From Dissulfurirhabdus thermomarina (lineage in GTDB: Bacteria; Desulfobacterota; Dissulfuribacteria; Dissulfuribacterales; Dissulfurirhabdaceae), in contig NZ_JAATWC010000007.1 in assembly GCF_012979235.1 (NCBI RefSeq), positions 1-64,000 on the forward strand: a stretch of 64,000 nucleotides of DNA, written 5' to 3'. A program made the translations under genes and the position numbers. Numbering within the stretch: the first letter of the stretch is position 1; every line of letters begins with the position of its first letter. Shown in pieces: positions 25,428-42,312 of the stretch. A model generated the notes under the pieces. That model did no database searches, had not been told where the DNA came from, and saw only the letters and a list, made by a program, of their open reading frames with translations.

Positions 25428-25946
25428 ATGAACCAAGCTTCCAGCGCAGGCGAAGCCAACCGGAGAGACTTTCTCTACTTCGATCTCGGCCCCGCCGCTT
25501 GGGCCGTGGATCTGGACTGGGTCCGGGAGGTGGTGGCCTCGCAGCGCATCGAGCCCATGCCCAACGCCGCCCCGCGGATCGCGGGCATGATCAACCTCCG
25601 GGGAGAGATCATCCCGGTCCTGGCCATCGAGGAGCTGCTCGAGGTGGAGGCGGGGCCGGCGCATCCCCGGCGCAAGATCCTGGTGCTCCAAGGGCCCGAG
25701 TGGGTGTCCGGCATCCTGGTGGACGCCGTCCACCGGATCGAGCACCTTCCGGCCGACGCCGTGGCCGCCCCCGAGGAGGCCCCGGCGGACGGGCGTTCGG
25801 CCCGTTTTGTGCAGGGGCTCGTCCGGCGAGAGGACGCGGACCCGGTTCCGATCCTCGACATCGGCCGCATCATCGAAGTCGTGCAGAGCGAGCGAACCCA
25901 GGAAGTCGATTCTCGAACACCGCCACACGCGCAGGGTGTCGCCTGA
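25428..25946 (+). CDS. CheW-type chemotaxis coupling protein
   Basis: 172 residues, a single CheW/SH3-like domain: [22 protein letters not shown] at the start, [21 protein letters not shown] near 50-70 (the hallmark of CheW), and [14 protein letters not shown] near 98. It links the receptor encoded 13 bases downstream to a CheA kinase, probably the one at 39.5-42.3 kb. It starts at ATG 25428; a sigma-28-like promoter precedes it. Confidence 0.9.
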
Positions 25947-25959
25947 CAGGAGGGTGTGG

Positions 25960-28383
25960 ATGAGCAGAAAGCGATCACAGACCAAGAGGGGTGCGAGCCT
26001 CCGGGCCAAGGGCATGGCCCTGGTGGCCCTCATCGTGGCCACCCAGGTGGGGGCGCTCGGGTACCAGTACGTCACTTCCCAGCGCCTGCTCCGCGCCGAG
26101 GGGGAACGGACCCTCTCCGCCGAGGCCGCAGGGCTCGCCAGCCGCCTCCATGGCTTCCTGGCCGACCGCGTCAACGACCTGCGCACCGTGAGCCAGCTGG
26201 CCGTCATCAAGTTGGCGGTGGAGATGGGCGGCGGGCAGGGCGGCACCAACCAGTTCCTGAACGACATGGCCAGCAACTACGAGCACTACCAGTTGCTCGC
26301 CGTGACGGACGCCAAGGGCCGGGTGCTCGCGGCCAGCCACCCGGCCGCCCGGGGGGAGGCCCTGGGGGCGGGGCGCTGGTTCACCCTGGCGGGCAAGGGC
26401 CGGGTGTCGATCTGCGGTCCGTTCCGCAGCCTGCTCCTCGGCCGGGTGATCGGGTCCAAGGACCCGCTCGGACCATGGACCGTGGCCATGATCGCCCCGG
26501 TGGAGAAGGGCGGCCGCACCATCGGCGCGGTGGTGAGCCTCCTCAACTGGGAGTCCTTCCACCGGTTGCTCGCCGATGCCGGCCAGGCGCTGGCCGCCAA
26601 GAAGGGCAGTGTCTACGTCCTGGACGGCTCCGGCAAGTTCATCTTCCACATCGACGACAAGCTTGCCGGGCAGCCGGCCGCCAAGTTCGGCCGTGGGACC
26701 GTGGCCTCGGCGGCCACGGGGGCCGGTGCCTCCCTGGCGGCCTTCCGTGTGGGCTCCGGGTTGACCGCGCAACGCTTCCTGGCCGCCAAGGCCCGGATCG
26801 CGACCCCGGAGGGCGCCGCCCCCGTTCGGTGGGCGGCCGTCGTGGAGCTGCCGGAGCGCAGCCTCTTCGCGGTGCTCTTCCGCCTGGCCCGTGACCAGGT
26901 CGCCGCCAGTGCCGTCCTCCTCGTCATCCTCTTCTTCTTCGCCCTCTTCCTCGACCGGAGCGTCACCCGACCCATGGTGAAGGCCTCCACCTTCCTCCGG
27001 CGGACGGCGGAAAACCTGGACCTCAGCGAGCGGCTCGACGTCCGCTCCAACGACGAGGTGGGCCGCATGGCGGTGGCCCTGAACAACTTCCTGGAGGCCC
27101 TTCAGACCACCTTCCGCGACCTCATCGAGGCCACCGCCCGGGTGGCCGAGTCGAGCCAATCGGTCCACTCCATCGCCGAGCGGATCGCGCACAACGCGAG
27201 CCTCCAGGCCCAGAAGTCCCAGGAGGTCATGAACCGGGTCCACCAGATGGGCGGGACCGCCGCCGAGGTGGCCTCCTTCGCCGAGTCCTCGGCCAAGCTG
27301 GCCCAGGAGGCGGCCCGGATCATCGACGAGATGGCCCAGACCAGCACCCGGATCGTGGACACCTCCAACCAGACCAAGCAGGGCGCCGAGAGCACCATCC
27401 AGGTCATCGGGGCCATGGGCGAGGGCGCCCGCCAGGTGCAGGCCAAGGCCAAGGCCCAGGCCGAGGCCTCCGCTCAGACCGCCACGGCCCTGAAGGGCAT
27501 GGTGGAGCAGCTGCACCACATGGCCGAGGAGGCCCAGAAGGCGGCCCAGGAGGCGGAGCAGAGCATGTTGAGCGCCCGGGAGGGCGGCGAGGCCATGGCC
27601 AAGACGGTGCAGGGTATGGAGGCCATCGCCACCAGCTCCAGCCAGGTCACCGAGATCGTGGACCTCATCTCCGACATCGCCGAGCAGACCAACCTGCTCG
27701 CCCTGAACGCCGCCATCGAGGCCGCCCGGGCCGGCGAGCACGGCCGGGGCTTCGCGGTGGTGGCCGAGGAAATCCGGAAGCTGGCCGAGCGGACCAGCGA
27801 GTCCACCCAGGAGATCGCCGCCCTCATCGGCGAGAGCGAGGAGCGGGTGAAGGAGGGTGTGAAGCTGACCCGGGAGAGCGCCGAGGTGCTGGACCGCATC
27901 GTGCGGACCGTCGAGAACAGCAGCCGGATCACCCGGCGGATCTCCGAGGTCTCCACGGAGCAGGAGCGGGGGACCACCACCCTCCTCCAGGCCATGGACG
28001 AGCTGCGGGCCCACGCCGACAGCATCGTTCGGATGACCGAGGAGCAGACCGTCCAGCGGAAGCAGGCCGAGGAGGCCATCGAGCGGCTGCGCGGCCTGAG
28101 CGACCAGATCACCGCCGTCGCCAACTCCACCACCCTCACCACCAACGCCGCCGTGGACACCATCCGGCGGGTGACCGCCAACTCCTCCGAGATCACCTCC
28201 CGGACCTCCCTGCAGCGGGAGCGGAGCGCGCTCCTCCAGCAGGCCATCGAGGAGATGGCCAACGGCGCCAACCAGAACGTGGAAGGCGCCCAGACCGCCC
28301 TCAAGGCCATGGAGGACCTCATGCGGCAGGCGCAGGAGACGGAGAAGCGGATGCGGCGCTTCCGGGTCTCCGCCTTCTCCTGA
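25960..28383 (+). CDS. Methyl-accepting chemotaxis protein
   Basis: 807 residues. A first membrane helix (about 17-35) and a long extracytoplasmic Cache-like sensor (36-310) lead to a second helix near 315-337 and a HAMP segment ([15 protein letters not shown] onward). The cytoplasmic signalling domain has the near-invariant hairpin tip [20 protein letters not shown] near 575-600. There is no C-terminal CheR-binding pentapeptide, and no CheR gene is in the window. AGGAGGGT precedes ATG 25960. Cotranscribed with cheW; ends at a strong terminator. Confidence 0.93.
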
Positions 28384-28479: not shown

Positions 28480-30813
28480 CTACCGGACGCAGGCCGCCCG
28501 GACGCTCTTGATGTCGGTGTGGCCCTGGAGGACCTTGAGGATGCCGTCCTGCTTGAGGGTGCGCATGCCGTTTTTCATGGCCAGGTCCCGGATCTCGGCC
28601 ACCGGGGCCTTGTGCTGGATGAGGGAGCGCATCTCGTCGCTCGACAGGAGCAGCTCGTGCACCGCCAGCCGTCCCTTGTACCCGGTGTTGTTGCACCGGT
28701 CGCACCCCTTCGGGCGGTAGAGGGTGGCGGAACGGACCTCGTCCGGGTCCAGGGGCCGCGAGGGGTGTTCCCCGTACTCGGCCAGGAAGTTCTCCACCTC
28801 CTTCTCGTCCGGCTTGTATTCCTCCCGGCAGAAGGGGCAGAGCCGCTTGACCAGCCGCTGGGCCAGGACGCCGAGGAGGGCGTCGGCGAAGTTGAAGGGA
28901 TCCATCCCCATTCCGAGGAGCCGGGTGACGGTCTCGGGGGCGGAGTTGGTGTGCAGGGTGGAGAAGACGAGGTGACCGGTGAGGGAGGCCTCGATGACGA
29001 TCTCGGCGGTTTCCTCGTCGCGGGTCTCACCCACCATGATGACGTCCGGGTCGGCCCGGAGGAAGGCCCGGAGGACCCGGGCGAAGGTGAGGTCGATGTT
29101 GGGCCGGACCTGGACCTGCCGGAGGCCTTCCTGCACGATCTCCACCGGGTCCTCCGCCGTCCAGATCTTCTTCTCCGGGCGGTTGATGTAGCCCAGGGCG
29201 GCGTGGAGGGTGGTGGTCTTACCGGAGCCCGTGGGCCCGACCACGAAGATGAGCCCGTAGGGCATCTCGATGATCTTTTTGAGATTTTCGAGGTTCTCCG
29301 GCAAGAGGCCCAGCCGGTCGATGGGCATGGCGTCGGAGGCGGCCAGGATCCGGAGCACCACGTCCTCGTTGCCCTCCGTTGTGGGCACCGTGGCCACGCG
29401 GAGTTCGATGGTGCGCTTCGTCCGGCTCTTGAACTTGATCTTGCCGTCCTGGGGTAGGCGCTTTTCGGCGATGTCCAGGTTGGCCATGATCTTGAGGCGG
29501 GAGACCAGGCCCTTCTTGTAGTTGTAGGGGATGGTCTGGTAGTTCAGGCAGTCGCCGTCGATGCGGAAGCGGATGAGGGCCCCGCGCTTGCCGGTGAGGG
29601 ATTCCACGTGGATGTCGGAGGCGTTTCGGGCAAAGGCGTCCTCGATGATCTTGTTCGCCATCTGGACGACGACGCCGTCGGCCTCGGCGAAGACCCCGGT
29701 CTCCTCCTCTTCTTCACCGTAGGCCTCCTCGTCCTCGAGCTCGAGCTGCTCGAAGACGTCTTCCTGCTCCTCCCCGGCGATGTTGTACTTGCCGTAGAAG
29801 TAGTCGATGAACTTGTTGATGTCGTCCTTCAGGGCCACGGCGAACTCGAAGTTGCTGGCCTTGAGGACGCGGCGGATGTTGTCGACCTTGGAGATGTCGT
29901 GGGGGTTGTCCAGGGCGACGAGGAGCGTGCCGCCCTGCTCCCGGACGGGGACGCAGCTGTTGGAGCGGAAGAAGTGCTCCTTGACGCCCTGAATGCAGGT
30001 GGGGGTCGCGCCGACCTCCAGCTCGTTGAACTCGACGAAGGGGCAGTGGTAGTACTCGCTGAGGGATTCCCCCACGGCCTTCTTGTCGATGCCGAACTGG
30101 TTGACCAGGACGGTCTCGATGCTCTTCTTGCCCTGGCGGGCCAGCTCGCAGGCCCTTTCGTACTGTTCCTCGGTGAGGAGCTGCCGCCGGACCAGGCCGA
30201 AGAAGCGGCCGAACTTCTGGGCGGTCTGCGACAGGGCCTCGATGCGCTCGTTGACGTTCCGGTAGTCCGGGTCGATCTTGGCGATGGTCTCGAGGGCCTG
30301 GAGGGCCTTGGCCACCCCGCCGGTCTTCTCGTGGGTGAGGGCCAGGCGGTAGAGGATGTCGAGGCGCCGCTCCTTGGGCAACGAGGTGTCTTCCACGGCT
30401 GCGGCAAGGTGCTCGAGGGCCTCGAAGGGCATGTCCATGTGGAGGTAGGTCTCGCCGATCTTGGCGTGGACCTCGCCTTCGCGGTGGCCCGCCCCGAGGA
30501 GGCCCTTGAGCTCCTCGATGGCCTCCGCGTGGAAGCCCGCCTCGATGAGGCCGATACCGGTGGCGAAGCGGCGCTGGAACTCCGCCTCCTCGTCGTCCGC
30601 CGCGTCCGCCGCGTCCGCCGCCGGGGCGGCCGGGGTGGAGTCTTCCACGTCCGGCAGGTTCTGGATGCGCTGCTCGATCTCGGCCCGGAGGGCCGCGTCG
30701 CTCTCTCCCAGCGCGGCGAGCACCTCTTGGTAGATGGCGGTGGCCTCGCCCACGAGGCCCTGTTCCGCGTAGAGGTCGGCTTCCTGGACCCTGCTCTGGA
30801 GCTCGGCGTTCAT
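28480..30813 (-). CDS. PilB/GspE-type secretion ATPase with N-terminal TPR-like domain
   Basis: 777 residues. The first ~210 are TPR-like helices (SRVQEADLYAEQGLVGEATAIYQEVL; GIGLIEAGFHAEAIEELKGLL), split by an Ala/Asp-rich linker. Then comes a T2SSE N-domain (FGRFFGLVRRQLLTEEQYERA) and an AAA motor: DIHVES near 405, Walker A GPTGSGKTTTLHAA near 530, Asp box, Walker B PDVIMVGETRDEETAEI near 595. The zinc site CPFCREE...CDRCNNTGYKGR is near 680-730. It probably powers type IV pilus extension or related secretion. Last gene of the mglB-mglA-CheW-like operon, which suggests direct coupling of MglA to the motor. Confidence 0.85.
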   Translation of the reverse strand: MNAELQSRVQEADLYAEQGLVGEATAIYQEVLAALGESDAALRAEIEQRIQNLPDVEDSTPAAPAADAADAADDEEAEFQRRFATGIGLIEAGFHAEAIEELKGLLGAGHREGEVHAKIGETYLHMDMPFEALEHLAAAVEDTSLPKERRLDILYRLALTHEKTGGVAKALQALETIAKIDPDYRNVNERIEALSQTAQKFGRFFGLVRRQLLTEEQYERACELARQGKKSIETVLVNQFGIDKKAVGESLSEYYHCPFVEFNELEVGATPTCIQGVKEHFFRSNSCVPVREQGGTLLVALDNPHDISKVDNIRRVLKASNFEFAVALKDDINKFIDYFYGKYNIAGEEQEDVFEQLELEDEEAYGEEEEETGVFAEADGVVVQMANKIIEDAFARNASDIHVESLTGKRGALIRFRIDGDCLNYQTIPYNYKKGLVSRLKIMANLDIAEKRLPQDGKIKFKSRTKRTIELRVATVPTTEGNEDVVLRILAASDAMPIDRLGLLPENLENLKKIIEMPYGLIFVVGPTGSGKTTTLHAALGYINRPEKKIWTAEDPVEIVQEGLRQVQVRPNIDLTFARVLRAFLRADPDVIMVGETRDEETAEIVIEASLTGHLVFSTLHTNSAPETVTRLLGMGMDPFNFADALLGVLAQRLVKRLCPFCREEYKPDEKEVENFLAEYGEHPSRPLDPDEVRSATLYRPKGCDRCNNTGYKGRLAVHELLLSSDEMRSLIQHKAPVAEIRDLAMKNGMRTLKQDGILKVLQGHTDIKSVRAACVR

Positions 30814-30863: not shown

Positions 30864-32597
30864 CTAGGCGGCCTCCGTTTCCGCCAGGTCCGCCTCGAGG
30901 AGCGCCGCCACGGAGAAGACCGGGCAGACCTGGCCCTGCAGCTCGATCCGGCCCGCCGGCCCCCGCTCCCCTTCCCGGGCCGGGGTCCACCCGAGGCCCG
31001 ACGTGTCCTCCACCGGCCGGGGCGGGCCGTCCACCACCACGGCGGCGCCCCCGTGTTCCGGGGAATAGAGGACCAGGAGGTGATCCTCGGTGTCCTCCGG
31101 CAGCTCGACGTCTTCGGGCACGAGGGGGTTGTCGAAGATGGGGAGGCTGAGCTTCTTCATCTGATCGGGAGAGAGCTCGTTGATGGGGCCGGCGAAGATC
31201 CCCTTGAAGCTGGAGAAGCGGCCCTTTCTCATCTTTTCCAAGGGGAGCATCTCGGCCTTTTTCAGGGCTCGCCGGGCGCGCTTGGGTGGCGGGCCGGCGT
31301 AGGCGACCTCGGCCTCCGGGAAGCAGGCGGCGATGCCCTGCCAGTGGCAGTACACCAGGCGGTCCCAGGGGCACGGGGTTGCCGCCTCGGCGGCCGCCGT
31401 TGCGGCCAGGGCGCCGAGGTCGATATCGTCCACGGCGACCATGGCCGCCGCCGAAAAGACCCCCTTCAGGCGGGTGCTCCTGGCCTCGAGGTCGGCACGC
31501 AGCTCGGCCTGGAACCGGTGGAGCTTTTCGAGGCCGGGGGTCTTGGCGAGCAGGGCCTCGATGGGGCGGAGGCGGCGGGCCCAGCGGTCGAGGGCCTTGA
31601 TCTCTTCCTGGAGGATCTTCTGGACCTCGGACGCGGCCTCTTCCCGGTCCATGGCGGGCGGAGGCGGCGCCGGCGAAGCGGCGGGTTCCGGGGAAGGCGC
31701 CTCCGGGCGCTCCGGTTCGGGCGGCGGGCCCGGGGGGGCGGAGCCCGGCTCCGGCTCCAGTTCCAGCTCCAGGCCGGCCTCCGCGGGTCCGGGCGAGGGC
31801 TCCACGGAAGGGGCGGCGGGCTCCGGGGGACGGGATTCCTCCTCGAAGAAGGCGGCCAGGCCCGGGTCGGCCACCGGGGCCTCCGGGGCCGGCTGCGCCG
31901 GCTCGCCGCCGGCGGCCTTCAACTGGGTGATGGCGCCCTCGATGAGCTGGCGCCGGGTCTCTTGGGATTCCGGGCGCGAGGCGATGAGGGTGCGCAGCGT
32001 GGCCGTCGCCCCGTTGAGGGCCTTGGGGGCACCCGGGGGCGCCTTCTCGGGGGCGGATTGCAGCACATCCAGCATCGCGTCCATGGCCCGGGTGATGGCG
32101 ATGGCATCCGCATCCCCGGCGGTCGACAGGGCCTCTTGCAGCCGGGCCACGTTCTCGCGGGCCGCCGAGAGGTTCGCATCGGAGATCTCCCAGTCGAGGC
32201 TCAGGAAGCTCTGCTCCATGGCGCCGAGGGCGTCCAGCAGGGCGTTTCGGGGGGGCTCCTCCGCTGCGGGCGCGGGACCCGCCGGGGCCGCTTCCGCGGC
32301 GGGCGCGGCGGGTTCTTCCAGGTCGAGGTCGAGCTCGAGCTCGAGGTCGAGTTCCAGCCCGCCCGTCCCTGCTTCCGCCGCCGGGGCCGGTTCGGGCTCC
32401 GGTACCGCCCCGGCGCCGCCGGCGTCTTCGGCCGGCGCCGCCGGTTCGGCGCCGGGTTCCTCGGCCGGGGGCCCTTCTTCCTTGACCTTGTTGGTCAAGG
32501 GGTCGATCTCGACGGTCTTTTCCGGGTTGAAGAGGTCGTCGATGGTGCCCTCGATCTCCCTCGTCAACTCCTCTGGATTGATGTTTTCATCGGACAT
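30864..32597 (-). CDS. Uncharacterised acidic adaptor with a possible C-terminal CheW-like domain
   Basis: 577 residues. It starts with a short conserved-looking segment (PEELTREIEGTIDDLFNPEKTVEIDP). A long Pro/Ala/Glu-rich linker is interrupted by two helical blocks (about residues 110-215 and 320-400). The last ~170 residues (from CPWDRLVYCHWQGIAACFPEAEVAY to GRIELQGQVCPVFSVAALLEADL) look like a degenerate CheW/SH3-type fold: a use-your-own-value start and a QVCPVFSVAALL end resembling the closing strand of CheW. The fold assignment is tentative. Located between mglA and the PilB-like motor gene, so it could connect chemosensory input and GTPase. Confidence 0.6.
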   Translation of the reverse strand: MSDENINPEELTREIEGTIDDLFNPEKTVEIDPLTNKVKEEGPPAEEPGAEPAAPAEDAGGAGAVPEPEPAPAAEAGTGGLELDLELELDLDLEEPAAPAAEAAPAGPAPAAEEPPRNALLDALGAMEQSFLSLDWEISDANLSAARENVARLQEALSTAGDADAIAITRAMDAMLDVLQSAPEKAPPGAPKALNGATATLRTLIASRPESQETRRQLIEGAITQLKAAGGEPAQPAPEAPVADPGLAAFFEEESRPPEPAAPSVEPSPGPAEAGLELELEPEPGSAPPGPPPEPERPEAPSPEPAASPAPPPPAMDREEAASEVQKILQEEIKALDRWARRLRPIEALLAKTPGLEKLHRFQAELRADLEARSTRLKGVFSAAAMVAVDDIDLGALAATAAAEAATPCPWDRLVYCHWQGIAACFPEAEVAYAGPPPKRARRALKKAEMLPLEKMRKGRFSSFKGIFAGPINELSPDQMKKLSLPIFDNPLVPEDVELPEDTEDHLLVLYSPEHGGAAVVVDGPPRPVEDTSGLGWTPAREGERGPAGRIELQGQVCPVFSVAALLEADLAETEAA

Positions 32598-32626: not shown

Positions 32627-33259
32627 TCAGGCCTTCTTGGCGCCCCTGGGGCCGATCAGGTGCTTGGTGGCCACGTACCGCACGGTGCGCTTGCTGATCT
32701 CCTTCAGGGTCTCGAAGACCCCGGCGCCCTTCACCGCGGAGGCCTCGAAGGTGGCGGTCTTGAGTTCGGAGTTGAGGTCCTGCTCCATCTCCTCCACGCT
32801 CAGGATGGGGATCGGCGTGGCGGCGAGGTCCCGCTTGTTGAATTGGATCACCAGGGGGATCTCGTGGATGTCGATCTTGTAGTCCTGGAGGTTTTGGCGG
32901 AGGTCTTCGAGGCTCTCGATGTTCTTCGCCTTTCGGACCTTCAGGGAATCCGCCACGAAGACGAGGCCGTCCACGCCCTTGAGGACCAGCTTCCGGGTGG
33001 CGGCGTACATGGTCTGGCCCGGGACGGTGTAGAGCTGGATGCGGATGTCGAAACCGCTGACCTTGCCGAGGTTGAGCGGCAGGAGGTCGAAGAAGAGGGT
33101 CCGGTCCCCCTTGGTTTCGATGGTCAGCATCTTGCCGCGGGAGTTCTCGTTCATCGTGTTATAGATGTAGAGGAGGTTGGTCGTCTTCCCGCAACGCCCC
33201 GGGCCGTAGTAGACGATCTTGCAGTGGATCTCTTTCTTGCTGAGGTCGATGAGGGCCAT
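32627..33259 (-). CDS. MglA-like small Ras-type GTPase
   Basis: 210 residues. P-loop YYGPGRCGKTTNLLYI near 17-32 and the PM3 segment TVPGQTMYAATRKLVLKGVDGLVFVADS (ends given) near 80-106 match MglA of Myxococcus and Thermus, which use VPGQ in place of DxxG. The base-specific loop is FNKRDL near 142. MglA-GTP marks the leading pole and activates type IV pili. It sits 4 bases downstream of its likely GAP partner gene (MglB-like), the usual arrangement. Confidence 0.9.
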   Translation of the reverse strand: MALIDLSKKEIHCKIVYYGPGRCGKTTNLLYIYNTMNENSRGKMLTIETKGDRTLFFDLLPLNLGKVSGFDIRIQLYTVPGQTMYAATRKLVLKGVDGLVFVADSLKVRKAKNIESLEDLRQNLQDYKIDIHEIPLVIQFNKRDLAATPIPILSVEEMEQDLNSELKTATFEASAVKGAGVFETLKEISKRTVRYVATKHLIGPRGAKKA

Positions 33260-33263
33260 GGGC

Positions 33264-33662
33264 TTAGGCGTTTTCGAAGATGTTCTCGATGGTGTCGGAG
33301 AGCTGGGAGACCCGGAGGCGCACGAGGCCCAGGGAGACGTCTTCGCCGAAGATGGTGATCAGGATGAAGGCCTCGCCGATGCGGGCGAAGTGGATGCTGT
33401 CCCGCTTGCCCTTGTGGAAGAGCAGGGAGAAGTCTTCCTCGCCGATGAGCCGGGCGATCTGCGAAGTGGCCCCGAAGTTGGCGGCGGCCAGGGCGGCGAG
33501 CGAGGTGGTGTCGATCTTCTGGGTCTCTTCCCCGCACGAGGCGAGGACGTTGCCCGAGTCGTCGATGAGCAGGACGGTCTTCACCCCGGCCTTGATGAGG
33601 GCGTCGTCGATCTCTTGCCGGGCCTTGTCGAGGGTGGCGGCGGTCAGGACGAAATCTGCCAT
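33264..33662 (-). CDS. MglB-like roadblock/LC7 protein
   Basis: 132 residues, single roadblock/LC7 domain: ARQEIDDALIKAGVKTVLLIDDSGNVLAS near 13-42, LAALAAANFGATSQIARLIGEEDFS and a C-terminal strand FGEDVSLGLVRLRVSQL. In Myxococcus and Thermus MglB is the GTPase-activating protein of MglA. First gene of the four-gene minus-strand operon; divergent from the HDOD gene. Confidence 0.88.
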   Translation of the reverse strand: MADFVLTAATLDKARQEIDDALIKAGVKTVLLIDDSGNVLASCGEETQKIDTTSLAALAAANFGATSQIARLIGEEDFSLLFHKGKRDSIHFARIGEAFILITIFGEDVSLGLVRLRVSQLSDTIENIFENA

Positions 33663-33953: not shown

Positions 33954-34805
33954 ATGGCCATTTCGATCGCGCAACGCTTCGACGATCTCGAGGAACTGCC
34001 GACCATTCCGCAGATCCTCAACAGGGTGCTGCACGAGGTGGACAGTGCCACCTCCACCGCGGCCTCCCTGGAAAAGGTCATCCGGGACGACCCGATGCTC
34101 ACGGCCAAGATCCTCCGCATGGCCAATTCGCCGTATTACGGCCTGGCGGGGGAGGTGAACAGCATCGCCCGGGCGGTGATGGTCCTGGGCTTCGAGGAGG
34201 TCCGGAACCTGGTGGTCGCCCTGGCCCTGGGCGGCGCCTTTTCCGGTGACCTCGGGATCCCCGGCGTGGACGCCGCCGACCTCTGGATGCACTCGGTGGG
34301 CACGGGCCGGGCGGCGAGCATGCTGGCAGAGCGGGTCGGCCTGGATGCGGACGAGCTCTTCACGGCAGGGCTCTTGCATGACATCGGGCGGCTGCTCATG
34401 TGCATGTACTTCAAGGACGAGATGAAAGAGATCATGGCGCTCCAGATCCAGCGCGGCGTCTCCCTGAACCAGGCCGAGGCGGAATTCGGCCTCTCCCACG
34501 GGGAGGTGGGGGCCTACCTCACCACGCGCTGGGGCTTCGGAGACTTTCTCTCCACGGTGGTCCGCTACCATCACAACCCCCAGGGGGCGGGTCCGCACGC
34601 GAAGGCGGCCTCCGCCGTGTTCCTGGCCGACGGGTTGTGCCGAAAGGTGGGGCTCGGCGCCTCCATCGGGGAAGACCCCGACCAGAAGTTGTTGGTCCCC
34701 AAGGCCCTGGGGATCGGGGGCGAGGACATCAAGAAGATCGCCCTCAGGCTCAAGAGTGAAAAGGCCCACCTCCTCGAGAGCTGGGGCCAGGTCATCGCAG
34801 CCTGA
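33954..34805 (+). CDS. HDOD-domain regulatory protein
   Basis: 283 residues, HDOD output domain: ELPTIPQILNRVLHEVDS near 14-31, DDPMLTAKILRMANSPYYG near 45-62, ARAVMVLGFEEVRNLVVAL, and a residual HD motif GLLHDIGRLLM near 140. These domains act as scaffolds in chemotaxis and second-messenger circuits, usually without enzymatic activity. ATG 33954 has GGGAGGAGA upstream. First gene of an operon running to cheA. Confidence 0.88.
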   Translation: MAISIAQRFDDLEELPTIPQILNRVLHEVDSATSTAASLEKVIRDDPMLTAKILRMANSPYYGLAGEVNSIARAVMVLGFEEVRNLVVALALGGAFSGDLGIPGVDAADLWMHSVGTGRAASMLAERVGLDADELFTAGLLHDIGRLLMCMYFKDEMKEIMALQIQRGVSLNQAEAEFGLSHGEVGAYLTTRWGFGDFLSTVVRYHHNPQGAGPHAKAASAVFLADGLCRKVGLGASIGEDPDQKLLVPKALGIGGEDIKKIALRLKSEKAHLLESWGQVIAA

Positions 34806-34819
34806 AGGCAGGGGGACAC

Positions 34820-35923
34820 GTGGAGCAGGAGCGGAAGATCCGGGTGCTGGTGGTGGACGACACGGCCTTCATGCGAAAGGCCCTGGTGGAGATCCTCTCC
34901 CGGGACGAAGGCATCGAGGTGGTGGGGGTGGCCCGGCACGGCCAGGAGGCCCTGGAGGCCATCGAGCAGCTCCGGCCCGACGTCGTGACCATGGACGTGG
35001 ACATGCCCGTCATGGACGGCCTCACCGCGGTGAAGCACATCATGGTGCGCCATCCCCTGCCGGTGGTCATGCTGAGCGGCCTCGGGGGGCACGGCGGCGT
35101 CACGCTGGAGGCCCTTCGGCTCGGGGCCGTGGACTTCTTCCCGAAGCCCTCCGGGACCATCTCCCTGGACATCCACGAGCAGGCCGACCAGCTGCTCCAG
35201 GTGGTCAAGCAGGCGGCCCGGGTCAACTCCGCCGCCATCCGCCGGGTCCGGCTCGCCGAGATTCGAGACTTCGAGGTGGACGGCCGGGGGGCCTCCGTCC
35301 CGGGGGCCGTGGTGATCGGCGCCCAGCAGGGATCGGCCGGGAGCCTCATCCGCATCCTCGATACCGTGACCCCCCGGTTCCCCATCGGCTTGTTGGTGGT
35401 CCAGGAGCTGTCCCCCCCGGTGCTCAAGTCCTACGCCGGCGAACTCCAGCGGGTCATCCCGTGGCGGCTCCGGGTGGGGGAAGAAGGGCCCGTGGAGAAG
35501 GGCGCCTGCTATGTCTCCAGTTACGACCGGCCCCTGGCCCTCGAGCCCGAGGGAGAGGCCCAGGCCGTCCGGGTGGTGACCCTCACGGACCAGGAAGGGG
35601 CGCTGGACGGGCTCTTTTCCCAGGCGGCGGGTATCTACAAGGACAAGTGCCTCGCCATCCTCCTCGGCGGCGCGGGCATGGACGGCGTGGAGGGGCTTCG
35701 GGCCGTTCACGAGGCCGGAGGACGCACCCTGGTCCTGAAGCCAGAGGAGTGCGTCCACGGCGAGGCCTCGGAGGCGGCCATCCGGCAAGGGGTCGTGGAC
35801 GAGGCGGTGATGGAACACGAGCTTCCGGAGCGGATCGAGGCCTTCGGCCGGCAGCTCTGGCTCGAGATGGCCGCGCGGAAGCGGCGCAACCGGCCGAACG
35901 AGGCGGTACAGATCGACGAGTGA
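34820..35923 (+). CDS. CheB-like protein 1: receiver plus degenerate methylesterase
   Basis: 367 residues. Receiver (1-120) is intact: LVVDDTAF and TMDVDMPVMDG with the phosphoacceptor Asp. The C-terminal half has the CheB fold but not its active site. The nucleophile motif GASTGG reads GAQQGSAGSL near 160 (Ser lost). The catalytic His of VQHMP reads VQELSPP near 187. The Asp region survives (LGGAGMDGVEGL near 290). Receptor demethylation is therefore unlikely. First of three tandem paralogues. Confidence 0.85.
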   Translation: MEQERKIRVLVVDDTAFMRKALVEILSRDEGIEVVGVARHGQEALEAIEQLRPDVVTMDVDMPVMDGLTAVKHIMVRHPLPVVMLSGLGGHGGVTLEALRLGAVDFFPKPSGTISLDIHEQADQLLQVVKQAARVNSAAIRRVRLAEIRDFEVDGRGASVPGAVVIGAQQGSAGSLIRILDTVTPRFPIGLLVVQELSPPVLKSYAGELQRVIPWRLRVGEEGPVEKGACYVSSYDRPLALEPEGEAQAVRVVTLTDQEGALDGLFSQAAGIYKDKCLAILLGGAGMDGVEGLRAVHEAGGRTLVLKPEECVHGEASEAAIRQGVVDEAVMEHELPERIEAFGRQLWLEMAARKRRNRPNEAVQIDE

Positions 35924-35932
35924 GGTGTTCTG

Positions 35933-37024
35933 ATGTCCAAGAAGACGGGTAAGGCCGCTCAGGCATCCGGGGACAAGGTGAAGGTCCTCGTGGTGGACGA
36001 TTCCCAGCTGATGTGCCGGATCCTGGAGAAGATCCTGTCCGGGGATCCCCGGTTCGAGGTGGTGGGGCAGGCCCTGAGCGGCAAGGAGGCACTCCGGATG
36101 CTCTCCGAGACCGACTGCGACGTCATCACCCTCGACGTCGAGATGCCCGAGATGAACGGTCTCACGGCGCTCAAGCACATCATGATCAAGCAGCCGAAGC
36201 CCACCCTCATGGTGAGCGCCTTCACCGCCGAGGGGGCCAAGGTGACCTTCGACGCCCTCCGGTACGGGGCCGTGGACTTCTTCCAGAAGCCCTCCCAGGA
36301 GGGCGGCGGCGACCTCGAGGCCCAGGCCGACGTGCTCCGTTCGCGCATCCTTCGGGCCTCCCGGGTCCAGGTGGGGGCGGCCCGCTACCTCCGGCTCCAG
36401 CGGGTGGCGGAGGTCGAGTGCGCCGAGGCCGAGGCCGAGGGGCTGGGCGGCGTCGCCGTCATGGCCACATCCACGGGGGGCTATGCCTCCCTGCTCTCGG
36501 TGCTGCCCCAGATGTGCCGGCCGCCGAAGGGGCCGCTCCTCATCTCCATGGGGACCCCGGCGGCCTTCCTCGGGGCCTTCGTGGACTACGTGAACCCCTT
36601 CGTGCCCTTCCCGGTGGAACGGGCGGGGCACGAGAGCCTCCTCAGGCCCGGGCATGCCTACGTGCTCGGCAGCGACGAGGCGCCGGCCATCGAGCAGCGG
36701 GGGGACGGCTACTACCTTCTCCTCGGCGAGCGTACCAAGGACATGGGCGACGAGGGCGGCGTGGACCTCCTCCTCTTTTCCGCCAGCGAGCACTTCGGGG
36801 ACAAGGTCCTGGCCGTCTTCCTCTCGGGGGACGGAACGGAGGGGCTCAGCGGGGCCAAGGAGGTCAAGCGGACCGGCGGGCGCATCCAGGTCCAGCGCCC
36901 GGAGACGTGCCTTTGTCCCGAGCTGCCCCGGAAGGTCCTCGACGAGGTGGACGGGGAGACCCTCGCCACCGGCGAGATCGCCCACCGACTCGAGAACTGG
37001 TGCGGCCCGGAGGGGGGTGAATGA
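35933..37024 (+). CDS. CheB-like protein 2: receiver plus degenerate methylesterase
   Basis: 363 residues. Receiver intact (LVVDDSQL, TLDVEMPEMNG). In the esterase-like half the nucleophile motif is kept (ATSTGGYASLL near 180), but the His position reads ISMGTPAAF and the Asp position reads FLSGDGTEGL (Glu for Asp), so the triad is broken in a different way from paralogue 1. Starts 10 bases after it and overlaps paralogue 3 by 4 bases (ATGA). Confidence 0.85.
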   Translation: MSKKTGKAAQASGDKVKVLVVDDSQLMCRILEKILSGDPRFEVVGQALSGKEALRMLSETDCDVITLDVEMPEMNGLTALKHIMIKQPKPTLMVSAFTAEGAKVTFDALRYGAVDFFQKPSQEGGGDLEAQADVLRSRILRASRVQVGAARYLRLQRVAEVECAEAEAEGLGGVAVMATSTGGYASLLSVLPQMCRPPKGPLLISMGTPAAFLGAFVDYVNPFVPFPVERAGHESLLRPGHAYVLGSDEAPAIEQRGDGYYLLLGERTKDMGDEGGVDLLLFSASEHFGDKVLAVFLSGDGTEGLSGAKEVKRTGGRIQVQRPETCLCPELPRKVLDEVDGETLATGEIAHRLENWCGPEGGE

Positions 37025-38433
37025 GCACGGCGCCGAACTGGGCCACCCTGGATCTCCTGCTCGAGGAGGAGCCCGTCCAGGGTTTCAGCGGCTGGCTCCA
37101 GGAGCTGTCGCTGGCGGACGTCGTGCAGCTGGCGTGCCTCGAGGGCGGCGAACGGGTGCTCATCGTCCGGCACGGGGACCAGGAGGGCGAGATCTACTTC
37201 GCCGGCGGCGAGATCGTCCACGCCGCCTATTCCGGCGGGACGGGCCAGGACGCCTTCTTCGACATCCTGAGCTGGCCGTCCGGCTCTTTCTGGTTCCGGC
37301 CGGGGGTGGCGCCCGAAAGGAGCATAGACGCCCCTTGGAACTTCATGCTCATCGAGGCGCTTCGGCTCGCGGACGAGCGGCGGCGCAAGGCCGCCATGGC
37401 GGGGGACGACCACCTCAAGGTCCTCGTCGTGGACGACTCCCCCCTGGTGTGCAAGGCCATGCGGAAGATCCTCGAGGAGGGACTCAACGTGGAGGTGGTG
37501 GCGGAGGCCAACAACGGCCGGGCCGCCCTCGAGATGATCGAGCAGCACCGGCCGGACCTCTTGACCCTCGACGTCAACATGCCGGTGATGGGGGGCGACG
37601 TGGCCCTCATGCACATCATGATCCGCTCCCCGGCACCGGTGGTCCTGGTGAGCGGCCTCGACGCCCGGGGGGCCGCCCGGGTCATGGAGTTTCTCCGGCT
37701 CGGGGCCGTGGACTTCGTCCCGAAGCCCGAGCAGGCCTCCGAGTGGCAGCGGGTGGCGGGCCGGCTCAACCGGAGCCTGAACTACGCCAAGCAGTTCTCC
37801 GTGCACTGCGTGCGGCGGGCCCGGAGCCCGAAGAAGGTCACCGAGAAGGCCCGGCCCGGGATGCCGGCCCGGCGCCTGGCCGTGGTCATCGGCGGCATCG
37901 GGGGGCTCCTCGAGGCGCAGAAGATCCTGCCGGCCCTCCCGGCGCTCCAGTCCACGTCGGTGCTGGTGGTCCAAGACATGATCGCCGACCTGGTGCCCCA
38001 CATGTCGGCCTACATCGACAAGTTCAGCGCCCTGGCGGTCTCGCCCCTCCAGTCGGGGGCCCCGCTCCTGTCGTCCCAGTGTTGGCTGGCCAACTGGGAC
38101 GCGGCCTGGGAGGTGGTGGCCGACGCCGACGGGGCGGCCATCCGGCGGGAGGAGGACGGCGGGGAAGGACTGGACGCCGGGCGGCTGCTGCGGTCGGCGG
38201 CGGAGGCCTTCGGCGCCAGCCTCCTCGTTGTGGTGCTCAGCGGCACCGACCTCGACCTCGAGGACGGCCTCCAGTCGGTGGTCAAGAAGGGGGGGCGGAT
38301 CCTCCTCCAGGATCCCGCCGGCTGCCTCATGCCGGGGCCGGTGGAGAACCTGCGGGAGCTGGAGCTCGAGGACGGCGTCATCGAGCCGGAGAAGGTGCCC
38401 GAGACCCTGGCGGAGTGGGATCGCGGCGGCTGA
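37021..38433 (+). CDS. CheB-like protein 3: PATAN (DUF4388) plus receiver plus degenerate methylesterase
   Basis: 470 residues with three parts. The first (1-115) is DUF4388/PATAN-like (FSGWLQELSLADVVQLACLEGGE, EIYFAGGEIVHAAYSG). A receiver (about 130-250) has LVVDDSPL and TLDVNMPVMGG. The CheB-like half (280-470) has GGIGGLL for GASTGG (Ser lost), VVQDMIADL for VQHMP (His lost) and LSGTDLDLEDGL at the Asp site. PATAN domains occur in gliding/pilus regulators of Myxococcus and cyanobacteria, which fits a pilus-linked system. Confidence 0.85.
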   Translation: MSTAPNWATLDLLLEEEPVQGFSGWLQELSLADVVQLACLEGGERVLIVRHGDQEGEIYFAGGEIVHAAYSGGTGQDAFFDILSWPSGSFWFRPGVAPERSIDAPWNFMLIEALRLADERRRKAAMAGDDHLKVLVVDDSPLVCKAMRKILEEGLNVEVVAEANNGRAALEMIEQHRPDLLTLDVNMPVMGGDVALMHIMIRSPAPVVLVSGLDARGAARVMEFLRLGAVDFVPKPEQASEWQRVAGRLNRSLNYAKQFSVHCVRRARSPKKVTEKARPGMPARRLAVVIGGIGGLLEAQKILPALPALQSTSVLVVQDMIADLVPHMSAYIDKFSALAVSPLQSGAPLLSSQCWLANWDAAWEVVADADGAAIRREEDGGEGLDAGRLLRSAAEAFGASLLVVVLSGTDLDLEDGLQSVVKKGGRILLQDPAGCLMPGPVENLRELELEDGVIEPEKVPETLAEWDRGG

Positions 38434-38494: not shown

Positions 38495-38848
38495 GTGGCC
38501 CGGATACTCATCGTGGACGATTCCAGCTTCATGCGAAAGCGGATTGGACAGGCCGTGGAACGGGCGGGGCACGAGGTGGTGGGCCTGGCCCGGGACGGGC
38601 AGGAAGGCGTGGATCTCTACCGCCGCCTGAGGCCGGATTGCGTGGTGATGGACGTCACCATGCAAGGGATGGACGGGCTCAGTGCCGCCCGGATCATCCG
38701 CGAGGAGGACCGGGGTGCCCGGATCGTCTTCATGAGCCTCCTCAAGGACGACAACGTAGTGGGCGAGGCCCTGTCCCTCGGGGCGGAGGCCTTTCTGGGA
38801 AAGGACGAGTACGACCGGCTGCTGGAGATCCTCGGCGGTTCGGGATGA
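38495..38848 (+). CDS. CheY-type single-domain response regulator
   Basis: 117 residues from GTG 38495 (GGGGAGAAGGA upstream). A complete receiver: ILIVDDSSFMRK, VVMDVTMQGMDG with the phosphoacceptor Asp near 53, VFMSLL for the Thr/Ser switch position and FLGKDE with the conserved Lys near 103. The likely diffusible output of the CheA encoded downstream. Confidence 0.9.
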   Translation: MARILIVDDSSFMRKRIGQAVERAGHEVVGLARDGQEGVDLYRRLRPDCVVMDVTMQGMDGLSAARIIREEDRGARIVFMSLLKDDNVVGEALSLGAEAFLGKDEYDRLLEILGGSG

Positions 38849-38893: not shown

Positions 38894-39532
38894 ATGGTGA
38901 CAGCCAAGCAAACCTCGACCCCGGCGATGGCAGGGATCCTGCCGCAGCTGGCCGCCGTCAAGGAGGCCTTTCGGGCGGTCAAGGCCCACCCCGGCGACCT
39001 GGGCGCCCAGCGGGCGTGCCTCGAGCCCCTGGCGGCCCTCAGGGAGGCGGCCGCCTCGGCGGGCGGCGGGCACGTGGAGATGCTGGCCCGGCACATGGAG
39101 GGGGTCTTGCGCCGGGCGGCCGAGGGGCGCTTGGCCCTGAAGGCCGAGGCCCTGGAGGCGGTGGAACTGGCCCTCTCCCGGATGGAGCGGCTCGTCGGCG
39201 GTGCCGCGGTGGCCGACGACGACGGCGAGCTGGCGGCCATCTACGCCGAGGAGATGCGGGAGCTCTGGGGCCGCCTCGACCAGGTCCTCGGGCGGGACCC
39301 GGTGGATGTCGAGGAAGTGGCACGCGTATTGAATGAAATGGAGCGGGCCAGCCGCTACGTCGGCCTCGATGCCGTGGTGGCGGAGATCGGCCGCGCGCGC
39401 GAGGTGCTCGGGAAGAAGGGCGCCAAGGCCCGGGCCGCCAAGTCCAAGGTCTGGCGGGAGCTGCGGCAGGGGCTCGCCGGCGTCCTCGACGCGGCCGCGG
39501 TGGCCGCCGGCCGGGACCGGGAGGAAGCATGA
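38894..39532 (+). CDS. Protein of two histidine-less Hpt-like helical repeats
   Basis: 212 residues, all helical. Residues ~45-102 align by eye with the CheA Hpt helices (LARHMEGVLRRAAEGRLALKAEALEAVELAL against the CheA stretch from LAHRMENLFDRV), but HSVKGAA is replaced by a segment without His. Residues ~115-160 (LAAIYAEEMRELWGRLDQVLGRDPVD, ASRYVGLDAV) resemble the second helical domain of the neighbouring CheA. It looks like a duplicated, phosphotransfer-dead CheA N-terminus, perhaps a docking competitor. Its stop overlaps the cheA start. Confidence 0.65.
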   Translation: MVTAKQTSTPAMAGILPQLAAVKEAFRAVKAHPGDLGAQRACLEPLAALREAAASAGGGHVEMLARHMEGVLRRAAEGRLALKAEALEAVELALSRMERLVGGAAVADDDGELAAIYAEEMRELWGRLDQVLGRDPVDVEEVARVLNEMERASRYVGLDAVVAEIGRAREVLGKKGAKARAAKSKVWRELRQGLAGVLDAAAVAAGRDREEA

Positions 39533-42312
39533 GCGAAGTCGACCAGGAAATGTTGCAGGATTTCGTCATCGAGGCGGAGGAGAACCTCGGCGAAATCGAG
39601 CCCAACCTGCTCCAGCTGGAACAAGATCCCGGCAACATGGACCTCCTGAACGCGTGTTTCCGGAACATGCACAGCGTCAAGGGGGCCGCCGGCTACATGG
39701 GCTTCCAGAAGATATCGACCCTGGCGCACCGTATGGAGAACCTCTTCGACCGGGTGCGGCAGGGCGAGATGAGTTTGGGCGAGCAGGCCATGGGGGCGGT
39801 CTTCCAGGGGGTGGACCGCCTCCGGAGCCTCGTCTCCGAGGTGGCCGAGCAGCAGCAGGAGACGGGGGAGATCGAGGACATGCTGGCCCTCCTGGACGCC
39901 GCCATGGAAGCGGCGGCGGCCCCGGCGCCGCCGGCGGGCGGCCCCGCGCCGGAGGCGGCCGGCGGGGCCGGCCCGGCCCCGGACTTCGAAGAAGAGGAAG
40001 GGGACGACCAGGAGCTCCTGGCCATCTACGCCGAGGAGATCCAGAGCCAGCTCAAGCGGTTCGACGGGGCCCTCGGCCAGGATCCCGTGGACGCCAAGCT
40101 GGCGGCCAGCGCCATCGAGGAGATGCAGCGGGCCACCCACTACGTCGGCCTCGAGGAGGTGCTGGAGGGGCTCGAGAAGGCGGCCGGCCGCGTGGCCGAG
40201 CTCGGCGAGGGCGGCGACGCCGCCGCCTGGGCGTCGGTCCGCGAGGAGGTCCAGGCGGCCCTGGCCCCGGTGGCCGAATTCCTCCAGGCGGCCGGGGCCC
40301 CCGAGGAGAAGCCGGAACTCCCGGTGGCCGAGGAGGACCGGGAGCTCTACGAGATCTTCCTCGAGTTCGTCAAGGAACTGGCCCCCCCGCTGGCCAACGT
40401 CCCCGACGAGCCCGACGAGGAATGGCTCACCACCTGCAAGGACGTGATCGGGCGGCTGCGCTCGTCCGCCCACTACATGGACTACCGGGAGGTCGTGGCC
40501 CTGCTGGACGAGTGGGAGGAAAGGATGGCCGAGGCCCTTTCCCGGGTCAGCGAGCACGCCCCCTTCGATGCAGGGTATCTCCGGGAGCTCTGGGCGCGGT
40601 TCGTCGATCTCCTGCCCGGTCTCGACATCGGCGTTGCGCCGGGGCCGGCCGCGGCCGCGCCGGCCCCGGAACCGGCCGAGGCCCCCGCCGCCGAAGAGAA
40701 CCCGGCGGACGTCCTGGAGGCGGCCCTGGACCAGCTCTTCGAGCAGGAGGGCCTGCTCGGGAACGGGGAAGCGGCCGCGGCCGGCGGGGGCATGGAACTC
40801 GACCTCGGCGGGGCGCTGGAAGAGGGCGCGGGCGCCGGCGAGGCCCCGCCGCCTCCCCCGGGCCCGAAGCCCCCGGCGGCCGAGGGGGGCGCCCCGAAGC
40901 CGCCCCCGGCGGGTGCCGCCGGTCCGAAGCCCCCGCTGGGCGATCTGGGGGCCGGAGACGAGGTCAAGGTGGTGGCGGACACCGGGGCGGGCAGCGCCCT
41001 CGGCAAGGTGGTCACCCAGACGGTCCGCATCGACCTCGACAAGGTGGAGCAGCTGCTCAACGAGGTGGGGGGGCTCGTGGTTCTGCGTTCCAGCCTGAAC
41101 CAGCTGGCCGACGAGATGAAGGGCCTCTATCACCAGTGGCTGGAGACCCGGAAGTGGCGGGCCGAGGAGCTTCGCCCCTACAAGGACATCATGTTCCGGG
41201 TGAGCGAGCAGACCGGTTCCCTCGACCGGGTGGTGCGCCAGGTGCAGGACAGCGTGATGCGGCTTCGGATGCTGCCGGTCAATCACCTCTTCAGCCGCTA
41301 TCCGCGCCTGGTCAGGGACCTGGCCCGGAAGCTGGGCAAGAAGGTGGAACTCATCGTGGCGGGCGCCGAGACGGCCCTCGACAAGCAGGTCATCGAGCAG
41401 ATGGCCGATCCTATGCTCCACATCATCCGCAACGCCCTGGACCACGGCATCGAGTCCCCCGAGGAGCGGAAGAAGGCCGGCAAGCCCGAGGTCGGGCGGT
41501 TGCGGCTCGCGGCCGCCCAGGAGGGCAACCACGTGGTGATCCGGGTGGCCGACGACGGCAAGGGCCTCAACCGCGACATCCTCCTGGAAAAGGCCGTGGC
41601 CAAGGGGCTCGTCCGGCAGGAGGAGGTCCAGGGCATGAGCGACGAGCAGGTGTGGGACATCATCTTCCTGCCGGGGTTCTCCACGGCGGCGGGGGTTTCC
41701 GAGACCTCCGGCCGCGGCGTGGGCATGGACGTGGTCCGGCGCAACGTGGAGAAGCTCGGCGGCACCATCCAGGTGAACTCCGTCCCCGGCTACGGCACCG
41801 AGTTCGAGCTGCGGATCCCCCTCACCTTGGCCATCATCCACGTGCTGCTCGTCCGGGTGGGCCACCAGAAGCTGGCGGTGCCGCTGGCCTCCGTCCAGGA
41901 GACCCTCCGCCTCAAGGCCACGGAGACCAGCACCCTGGAGGGGTTCGAGATCATGGCGCTGCGGCAGAAGACCCTGCCGCTCATCCGGCTGAACAAGGTC
42001 TTCCGCGGGACGGGCTCCGACCTCGACCCCGACCGGTTCTTCGTGGTGGTGGTGCGCCAGGGGGAGATCGAGGCGGCGCTGGCCGTGGACGGCCTCGTGG
42101 GCCAGCAGGAGGTGGTCATCAAGCCGCTTCCGGACTATCTCACCGACCAGCCGGGGTTCGCCGGGGCGACGCTGCTCGGCGACGGCTCCATCGCCTTGAT
42201 CCTGGACATCCCGGTGGTGCTGGATCGGGCCAAGAGCTTCATCCACCGGCAACAGCAGATCCTCGAGCAGGCCGCCCTGGGGCTCGGGGAGGCCGGGAAC
42301 CTCCTCCACTGA
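39529..42312 (+). CDS. cheA: CheA histidine kinase with extra Hpt-like domains
   Basis: 927 residues. An Hpt domain (1-105) has the phospho-His in FRNMHSVKGAAGYMG (H48). Two more helical Hpt-like blocks without the His motif follow (about 162-245 and 265-360), then a Pro/Ala/Glu linker (about 370-490). The dimerisation domain (DLDKVEQLLNEVGGLV near 505) leads to the ATPase (N-box HIIRNALDHGIES near 630; VADDGKGL; GRGVGMDVVRRNVEKLGG near 725) and a C-terminal CheW domain (about 765-910). The kinase part is complete. ATG 39529 overlaps the previous stop. Partner of the CheY, CheW and CheB-like proteins. Confidence 0.93.
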   Translation: MSEVDQEMLQDFVIEAEENLGEIEPNLLQLEQDPGNMDLLNACFRNMHSVKGAAGYMGFQKISTLAHRMENLFDRVRQGEMSLGEQAMGAVFQGVDRLRSLVSEVAEQQQETGEIEDMLALLDAAMEAAAAPAPPAGGPAPEAAGGAGPAPDFEEEEGDDQELLAIYAEEIQSQLKRFDGALGQDPVDAKLAASAIEEMQRATHYVGLEEVLEGLEKAAGRVAELGEGGDAAAWASVREEVQAALAPVAEFLQAAGAPEEKPELPVAEEDRELYEIFLEFVKELAPPLANVPDEPDEEWLTTCKDVIGRLRSSAHYMDYREVVALLDEWEERMAEALSRVSEHAPFDAGYLRELWARFVDLLPGLDIGVAPGPAAAAPAPEPAEAPAAEENPADVLEAALDQLFEQEGLLGNGEAAAAGGGMELDLGGALEEGAGAGEAPPPPPGPKPPAAEGGAPKPPPAGAAGPKPPLGDLGAGDEVKVVADTGAGSALGKVVTQTVRIDLDKVEQLLNEVGGLVVLRSSLNQLADEMKGLYHQWLETRKWRAEELRPYKDIMFRVSEQTGSLDRVVRQVQDSVMRLRMLPVNHLFSRYPRLVRDLARKLGKKVELIVAGAETALDKQVIEQMADPMLHIIRNALDHGIESPEERKKAGKPEVGRLRLAAAQEGNHVVIRVADDGKGLNRDILLEKAVAKGLVRQEEVQGMSDEQVWDIIFLPGFSTAAGVSETSGRGVGMDVVRRNVEKLGGTIQVNSVPGYGTEFELRIPLTLAIIHVLLVRVGHQKLAVPLASVQETLRLKATETSTLEGFEIMALRQKTLPLIRLNKVFRGTGSDLDPDRFFVVVVRQGEIEAALAVDGLVGQQEVVIKPLPDYLTDQPGFAGATLLGDGSIALILDIPVVLDRAKSFIHRQQQILEQAALGLGEAGNLLH

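Follow-up and report, generated by a model that had tools for sequence, protein, structure and literature searches.

Three tandem CheB-like proteins with intact receivers and no catalytic triad in a chemosensory gene cluster of Dissulfurirhabdus thermomarina

Here, we analyze three consecutive CheB-like proteins, P1, P2 and P3, which are encoded in a chemosensory gene cluster of Dissulfurirhabdus thermomarina. The window, i.e., the whole stretch of DNA analyzed, comprises 64,000 nucleotides (contig NZ_JAATWC010000007.1, positions 1 to 64,000 of the forward strand; G+C 70.7%) of a genome of 2.46 Mb that is 99% complete. An earlier note on this DNA, made from the sequence alone, had described three tandem CheB-like proteins at 34820-38433, and both the open reading frames and the Pfam domains agree with this description:

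34820-35923, + strand: P1, 367 aa, receiver and degenerate CheB domain, linker motif AIRRVRL
35933-37024, + strand: P2, 363 aa, receiver and degenerate CheB domain, linker motif AARYLRL
37021-38433, + strand: P3, 470 aa, N-terminal DUF4388, receiver and degenerate CheB domain, linker motif VRRAR

All three proteins match Response_reg and CheB_methylest at 70 to 95 bits (Pfam; cut-off 24), and the open reading frames of P2 and P3 share an ATGA overlap. CheB is usually presented as a receptor-resetting enzyme. No published description of catalytically dead CheB paralogues was found in the open-access full-text literature.

Several lines of evidence suggest that P1 to P3 are probably response regulators built from CheB and not methylesterases. 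First, in an alignment to the genome's three canonical CheBs, P1 has Gln for the catalytic Ser and Glu for the His and keeps the Asp (GAQQGS / VVQELSP / GGAGMDG); P2 keeps the Ser and has Gly for the His and Glu for the Asp (ATSTGGY / LISMGTP / SGDGTEG); and P3 has Gly for the Ser and Asp for the His and keeps the Asp (IGGIGG / VVQDMIA / SGTDLDL). This is exactly the pattern of losses given in the earlier note, and when the profile of P2 orthologues is aligned to Salmonella CheB (1a2o), the same columns face S164, H190 and D286. Second, the loss is shared by orthologous clusters. A full Ser-His-Asp triad is found in 0 of 81 orthologues (26 P1, 28 P2, 27 P3), while all three residues are kept in 32 of 32 canonical CheBs of the order Dissulfuribacterales. 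The Ser position is Gly in 27 of 27 P3, and the His position has become Asp in 19 of 26 P1 and 18 of 27 P3 and Gly in 21 of 28 P2. Triad calls for L091, L093, L094, L103, L105-L108 and L114, which score as canonical CheBs, were discarded for gaps or off-register placement by mafft --add. Third, active-site residues at shifted positions, which the earlier note had named as a finding that would count against it, were not recovered. The best His column contains His in only 23% (P1), 39% (P2) and 22% (P3) of the sequences; with no conserved-His column in any of the three CheB domains, a relocated triad is ruled out as a conserved feature. A Ser three positions downstream in P1 was likewise rejected as a shifted active-site residue, as it is not conserved. 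P1 to P3 have also lost the GMGxDG motif and another His that is invariant in the canonical CheBs. Fourth, PF01339 scores are bimodal among full-length domains, with canonical CheBs at ≥158 bits and proteins of the P1 to P3 type at ≤98, and over the full proteins the NCBIfam CheB model PRK00742 gives 232, 239 and 173 bits, short of its cut-off of 293.

The receivers present the opposite picture. The acid pair, the phosphorylatable Asp, the Thr/Ser and the Lys are complete in P1, P2 and P3, as the earlier note had stated, and nearly invariant in their orthologues. Receiver identity among orthologues is 72% (P1), 67% (P2) and 54% (P3), compared to 26, 41 and 34% for the CheB domains; in canonical CheBs, the receiver and the CheB domain have 61 and 62% identity, respectively. 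In close pairs, the CheB domains mostly have a ratio of nonsynonymous to synonymous substitution rates (dN/dS) of 0.1 to 0.3, with single values reaching 0.48. Judged by these sequence comparisons, selection on the CheB half is relaxed yet present, and selection on the receiver is tight. The low dN/dS indicates that the fold is kept and not decaying, and structure prediction agrees. The AlphaFold models of P2 and P3 have a mean predicted local distance difference test score of 89 and 88 and a predicted template modeling score of 0.88 and 0.71, respectively, and the closest solved structures to both are full-length CheBs. Superposition on full-length CheB 1a2o gives Z 38.7 with a root-mean-square deviation of 2.5 over 336 residues for P2 and Z 33.7 over 337 residues for P3, so the retention of the fold proposed earlier is supported. 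Domain matches and the P2 and P3 models also give the receiver, linker, CheB_methylest order of CheB. Thus, the features by which pseudoenzymes are recognized, i.e., loss of catalytic residues among orthologues, a retained fold and purifying selection, are all present.

The same data bear on the idea that P1 to P3 are the decaying remains of an earlier methylation system, or that the losses are an alignment artefact. The CheB domains do evolve faster than the receivers, and the Seep-SRB2 lineage (L047), a member of Dissulfuribacterales (PMC10553843), already lacks P1, P3 and most of CheA. Nevertheless, this explanation is extremely improbable: the block occurs, whole or in part, in 27 of the 41 genomes of the order, the CheB domains evolve under purifying selection, the models have high confidence, and the losses appear older than the order. 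Pseudogene decay was rejected on purifying selection together with intact frames in the CheB domains. Alternatively, P2, or all three proteins, could be enzymes with altered chemistry. P2 keeps the [ST]TGGY loop, an invariant Ser129, an invariant Cys157 and a near-invariant Asp131 (domain numbering), and P2-like proteins of another family (f52) keep S-H-D. However, P1 to P3 have no conserved His and have lost GMGxDG, and the triad Ser is not invariant in P2 and is absent from every P3. We consider such activity very unlikely.

Directly after receiver alpha5, each paralogue carries a conserved basic motif, which is IKRAR-like in P1, AARYLRL in 26 of 28 P2 and NIRRAR-like in 22 of 27 P3; other families of the phylum have comparable linker motifs, e.g., RYLRP in Desulfosarcina. 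In enteric CheB, residues 130-140 occupy the same place and form the pentapeptide site, which is apparently accessible once phosphorylation has opened the protein but not while it is closed (PMC8609364). This peptide site is a physical precedent for phosphorylation-gated binding away from the active site and, by analogy, P1 to P3 may use their linker site in this way. The receivers might instead act as phosphate sinks that drain CheA phosphate and set the lifetime of the CheY-like output, with the CheB domains as passive passengers. The receivers are by far the best-conserved part of P1 to P3, the cluster has four receivers for one CheA, and the FrzE receiver provides a precedent in the Frz system (PMC4546325). 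However, a pure sink would need neither a linker nor CheB domains, yet conservation extends to the linker motif, and nearly every genome has the CheB domains in all three proteins, with the fold retained and the low dN/dS given above. We, therefore, regard a pure sink as unlikely.

The genes around P1 to P3 suggest where binding could lead:

33954-34805, + strand: HDOD-domain protein, opening the gene run of P1 to P3 (PF08668, 193 bits; synteny)
38495-38848, + strand: CheY-like single-domain receiver, GTG start, with a purine-rich, ribosome-binding-like stretch before the start
38894-39532, + strand: histidine phosphotransfer (Hpt)-like protein without evident phosphorylatable His, with no separate gene in relatives
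39529-42312, + strand: CheA kinase with a His-bearing Hpt domain, dimerization domain, HATPase and CheW-like domain; presumed phosphodonor
33264-33662, − strand: MglB-like Roadblock/LC7 protein (NCBIfam MglB model matched, under cut-off)
32627-33259, − strand: MglA-like small Ras-like GTPase (domain match and synteny)
30864-32597, − strand: X31, conserved protein without assigned family, encoded between MglA and PilB, with orthologues
28480-30813, − strand: PilB-type pilus extension ATPase (TIGR02538, 532 bits, under its cut-off of 676)
25428-25946, + strand: CheW, probable cognate coupling protein (98 bits at 25470-25877)
25960-28383, + strand: dCache-HAMP methyl-accepting chemotaxis protein (MCP), probable cognate receptor, without consensus methylation sites or pentapeptide

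The genes for the HDOD protein, P1, P2, P3, the CheY-like receiver, the Hpt-like protein and CheA form a tight run on the + strand. To the left and divergent from this run lie the genes for the MglB-like and MglA-like proteins, X31 and PilB, with CheW and the MCP farther out. The order, a group of sulfur-metabolizing bacteria, retains in many genera, whole or in part, the block HDOD-P1-P2-P3-CheY-like-CheA, which diverges from MglB-MglA-X31-PilB; MglAB lies beside it in 22 of the 23 loci with sufficient flank. X31 is conserved in this order between MglA and PilB at ∼25% identity, has an N-terminal FTxEIExTIDDLF motif and is a candidate partner; a Pfam search and a profile search of the Protein Data Bank found no relative. 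These searches also gave no support to a CheW-like C terminus of X31, and CheW is in fact encoded at 25428-25946. The Hpt-like protein (EMERASRYVGL, no evident phosphorylatable His) is a stand-alone gene in the present genome only; further Hpt-like stretches lie inside the cluster CheA, and degeneration of Hpt modules may be a parallel to that of the CheBs.

The context of P1 to P3 is free of methylation functions. No CheR or CheD was found in the cluster. The statement in the earlier note that neither is nearby holds at this locus and fails genome-wide, where three CheRs, two CheDs and three canonical CheBs are encoded elsewhere, with the CheRs beside the canonical CheBs. The MCP does lack the C-terminal CheR pentapeptide, as the earlier note had observed; this is weak evidence, because many CheB/CheR systems work without a pentapeptide (PMC7698151). 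The stronger point is the receptor itself: in a search with the strict consensus, no methylation motif was found in the MCP or in three orthologues (L229, L230, L233). One to two such motifs each occur in three receptors that serve other pathways of this bacterium, a small sample, and L234, a weaker relative of the MCP, has one. Moreover, genome G027 (98% complete) has one CheA, located in the cluster, one MCP, orthologous to the MCP described here, one CheW nearby and three pseudo-CheBs, and neither CheR nor a canonical CheB was found in it. An assembly gap was rejected as the reason, because the MCPs of the congener G029 are spread over at least seven contigs and, at 98% completeness, G027 lacks these MCPs with a single exception, more than one gap can explain. 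In G028 (94% complete, Seep-SRB2), P2 is the only one of the three proteins, CheA is reduced to an Hpt fragment of 306 residues, and CheR was not found. Most other genomes, the present one included, encode CheR and canonical CheB elsewhere. Thus, cross-talk from these enzymes is possible in the present genome, but G027 shows that they are not required. The cognate CheR and methylatable receptor expected of a CheB are missing alike: CheR from the cluster and from G027, and consensus sites from the MCP.

A receptor without methylation motifs would need other means for any adaptation, and P1 to P3 could provide these as noncatalytic scaffolds or competitors that bind the receptor array at the MCP and tune CheA. 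In ordinary CheB, the area around the active site binds receptor helices, and the activated form binds the receptor tether (PMC8609364). However, the lining of the CheB active site is mostly lost, including the second His, and the three paralogues have diverged differently, a pattern more in keeping with several partners than with a single receptor. We judge this adaptation mechanism quite unlikely.

P1 to P3 can be compared to several known systems. With CheB (Salmonella, 1a2o; PRK00742), they share the order of receiver, linker and CheB domain, the whole fold, the receiver residues and a CheB_methylest match above cut-off; they differ in that no orthologue has the triad, the second His and GMGxDG are lost, the PRK00742 score is below cut-off, and three copies lie in tandem in a cluster without CheR. 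In Myxococcus xanthus, the Frz chemosensory genes are likewise tied to MglA/MglB and type IV pili; that link is functional, while the link described here consists in gene neighborhood. The receiver of Myxococcus FrzG is degenerate and its esterase is kept (PMC4546325), which is the reverse of the pattern in P1 to P3. Frz also keeps a CheR (FrzF), whereas the present cluster has neither CheR nor a triad-bearing CheB. Pathways of the Pil-Chp/Tfp class resemble the cluster in a CheA with an Hpt-rich N terminus, a CheY-like receiver and an adjacent pilus ATPase. Chp keeps an active ChpB and the CheR PilK, in contrast to the triad-less CheB copies and the lack of CheR here. Finally, like CheV, in which CheW is fused to a receiver, P1 to P3 join a phosphorylatable receiver to what is probably a nonenzymatic binding domain, except that their second domain has the CheB fold and not that of CheW.

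We suggest, with a probability of about two in three, that P1 to P3 are pseudo-methylesterases that serve as CheA-phosphorylated, phosphorylation-gated binding modules, probably acting on MglA and pilus polarity. In the proposed mechanism, a signal at the MCP (paired with CheW at 25.4-28.4 kb) would set the activity of the cluster CheA, and this kinase is the most likely source of phosphate for P1, P2 and P3 and also for the CheY-like receiver. Once phosphorylated, the two domains would move apart, as they do in ordinary CheB, so that the alpha5/linker segment and the face of the CheB domain become exposed. The exposed surfaces could then bind partners encoded in or beside the cluster, the likeliest being the MglA/MglB polarity switch, X31, PilB or the HDOD protein. 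The output would fall on MglA/MglB and PilB, steering pilus extension rather than resetting receptors, or else on the receptor array; gene order and the Frz precedent (PMC4546325) point to MglA/PilB. The earlier note had proposed that the fold is retained for phosphorylation-gated binding in a mechanism of adaptation or output other than methylation. Of this proposal, a fold without catalytic residues and a methylation-independent pathway are upheld by the absence of triads from all 81 orthologues, the lack of a relocated His, Z scores of 34 to 39, purifying selection, the motif-less MCP and G027, while the argument from a missing CheR stands only locally.

Several observations weigh against this proposal. 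Ser is present in the GxSTGG loop of 20 of 28 P2 orthologues, most of which have Ser and Thr there, and some P2-like proteins of the phylum have the full S-H-D, so that residual or different chemistry in P2 is possible. With only 26% identity, the CheB domain of P1 hardly points to a single, strongly conserved surface for a partner. Linkage to MglA/PilB was met in this order only; the related operons examined in other families contain CheW, MCP and ParA-like ATPase genes instead, and the operon of family f24 contains CheR.

The survey of the phylum (395 genomes searched, 20 regions read) informs on the origin of the paralogues. Related operons are present in other families, as in Desulfosarcina widdelii with the row P2-like, CheW, receiver, CheA and P3-like. 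In a phylogenetic tree, P1, P2 and P3 are each monophyletic, and P1 and P3 group with their counterparts in other families with support of 0.92 to 0.94; the deep branches have low support. On this grouping, the paralogues seem to predate the order. P1-like proteins of other families have T-E-D or S-D-D, most P3-like proteins begin with Gly, and several P2-like proteins, including those of f52, are still S-H-D. From these states, it seems that the His of P1 and the Ser of P3 were lost first and that P2 followed, and the CheR of the f24 operon fits a methylation-dependent ancestor. It is a tentative suggestion, at somewhat less than even odds, that a pathway class spans Desulfobacterota in which the set of dead CheBs forms a phospho-regulated output layer of binding adaptors, steering MglA and type IV pili in this order, with receptor methylation abandoned down to the receptor itself.

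A trio that has given up catalysis but preserved the switch throughout an order would demonstrate that the CheB fold is able to act as an output or adaptor domain, and the relatives in the phylum, some with S-H-D, would form an evolutionary series from chemotaxis enzyme to pseudoenzyme. G027, with one receptor, one CheA, no CheR and no active CheB, would offer a natural pathway in which to study methylation-free adaptation. The annotation "protein-glutamate methylesterase" would be wrong for P1 to P3 and would miscount methylation systems. The hosts are related to the Seep-SRB2 partners of methane-oxidizing archaea. In that lineage (L047:7044-9135 / L077:9887-11978), P2 alone and a 306-residue CheA remnant that has a single Hpt domain still adjoin MglAB and PilB, a receiver/phosphotransfer pair without a kinase core. 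Genome G002 (86% complete, 270 contigs) has two pseudo-CheB clusters, L044 and L052. In L086 and L088 (Desulfosarcina and a relative), P2-like (S-Y-D) and P3-like (G-S-G) proteins flank CheW, receiver and CheA; in L086, a zinc-ribbon ParA-like ATPase and a HAMP protein come next.

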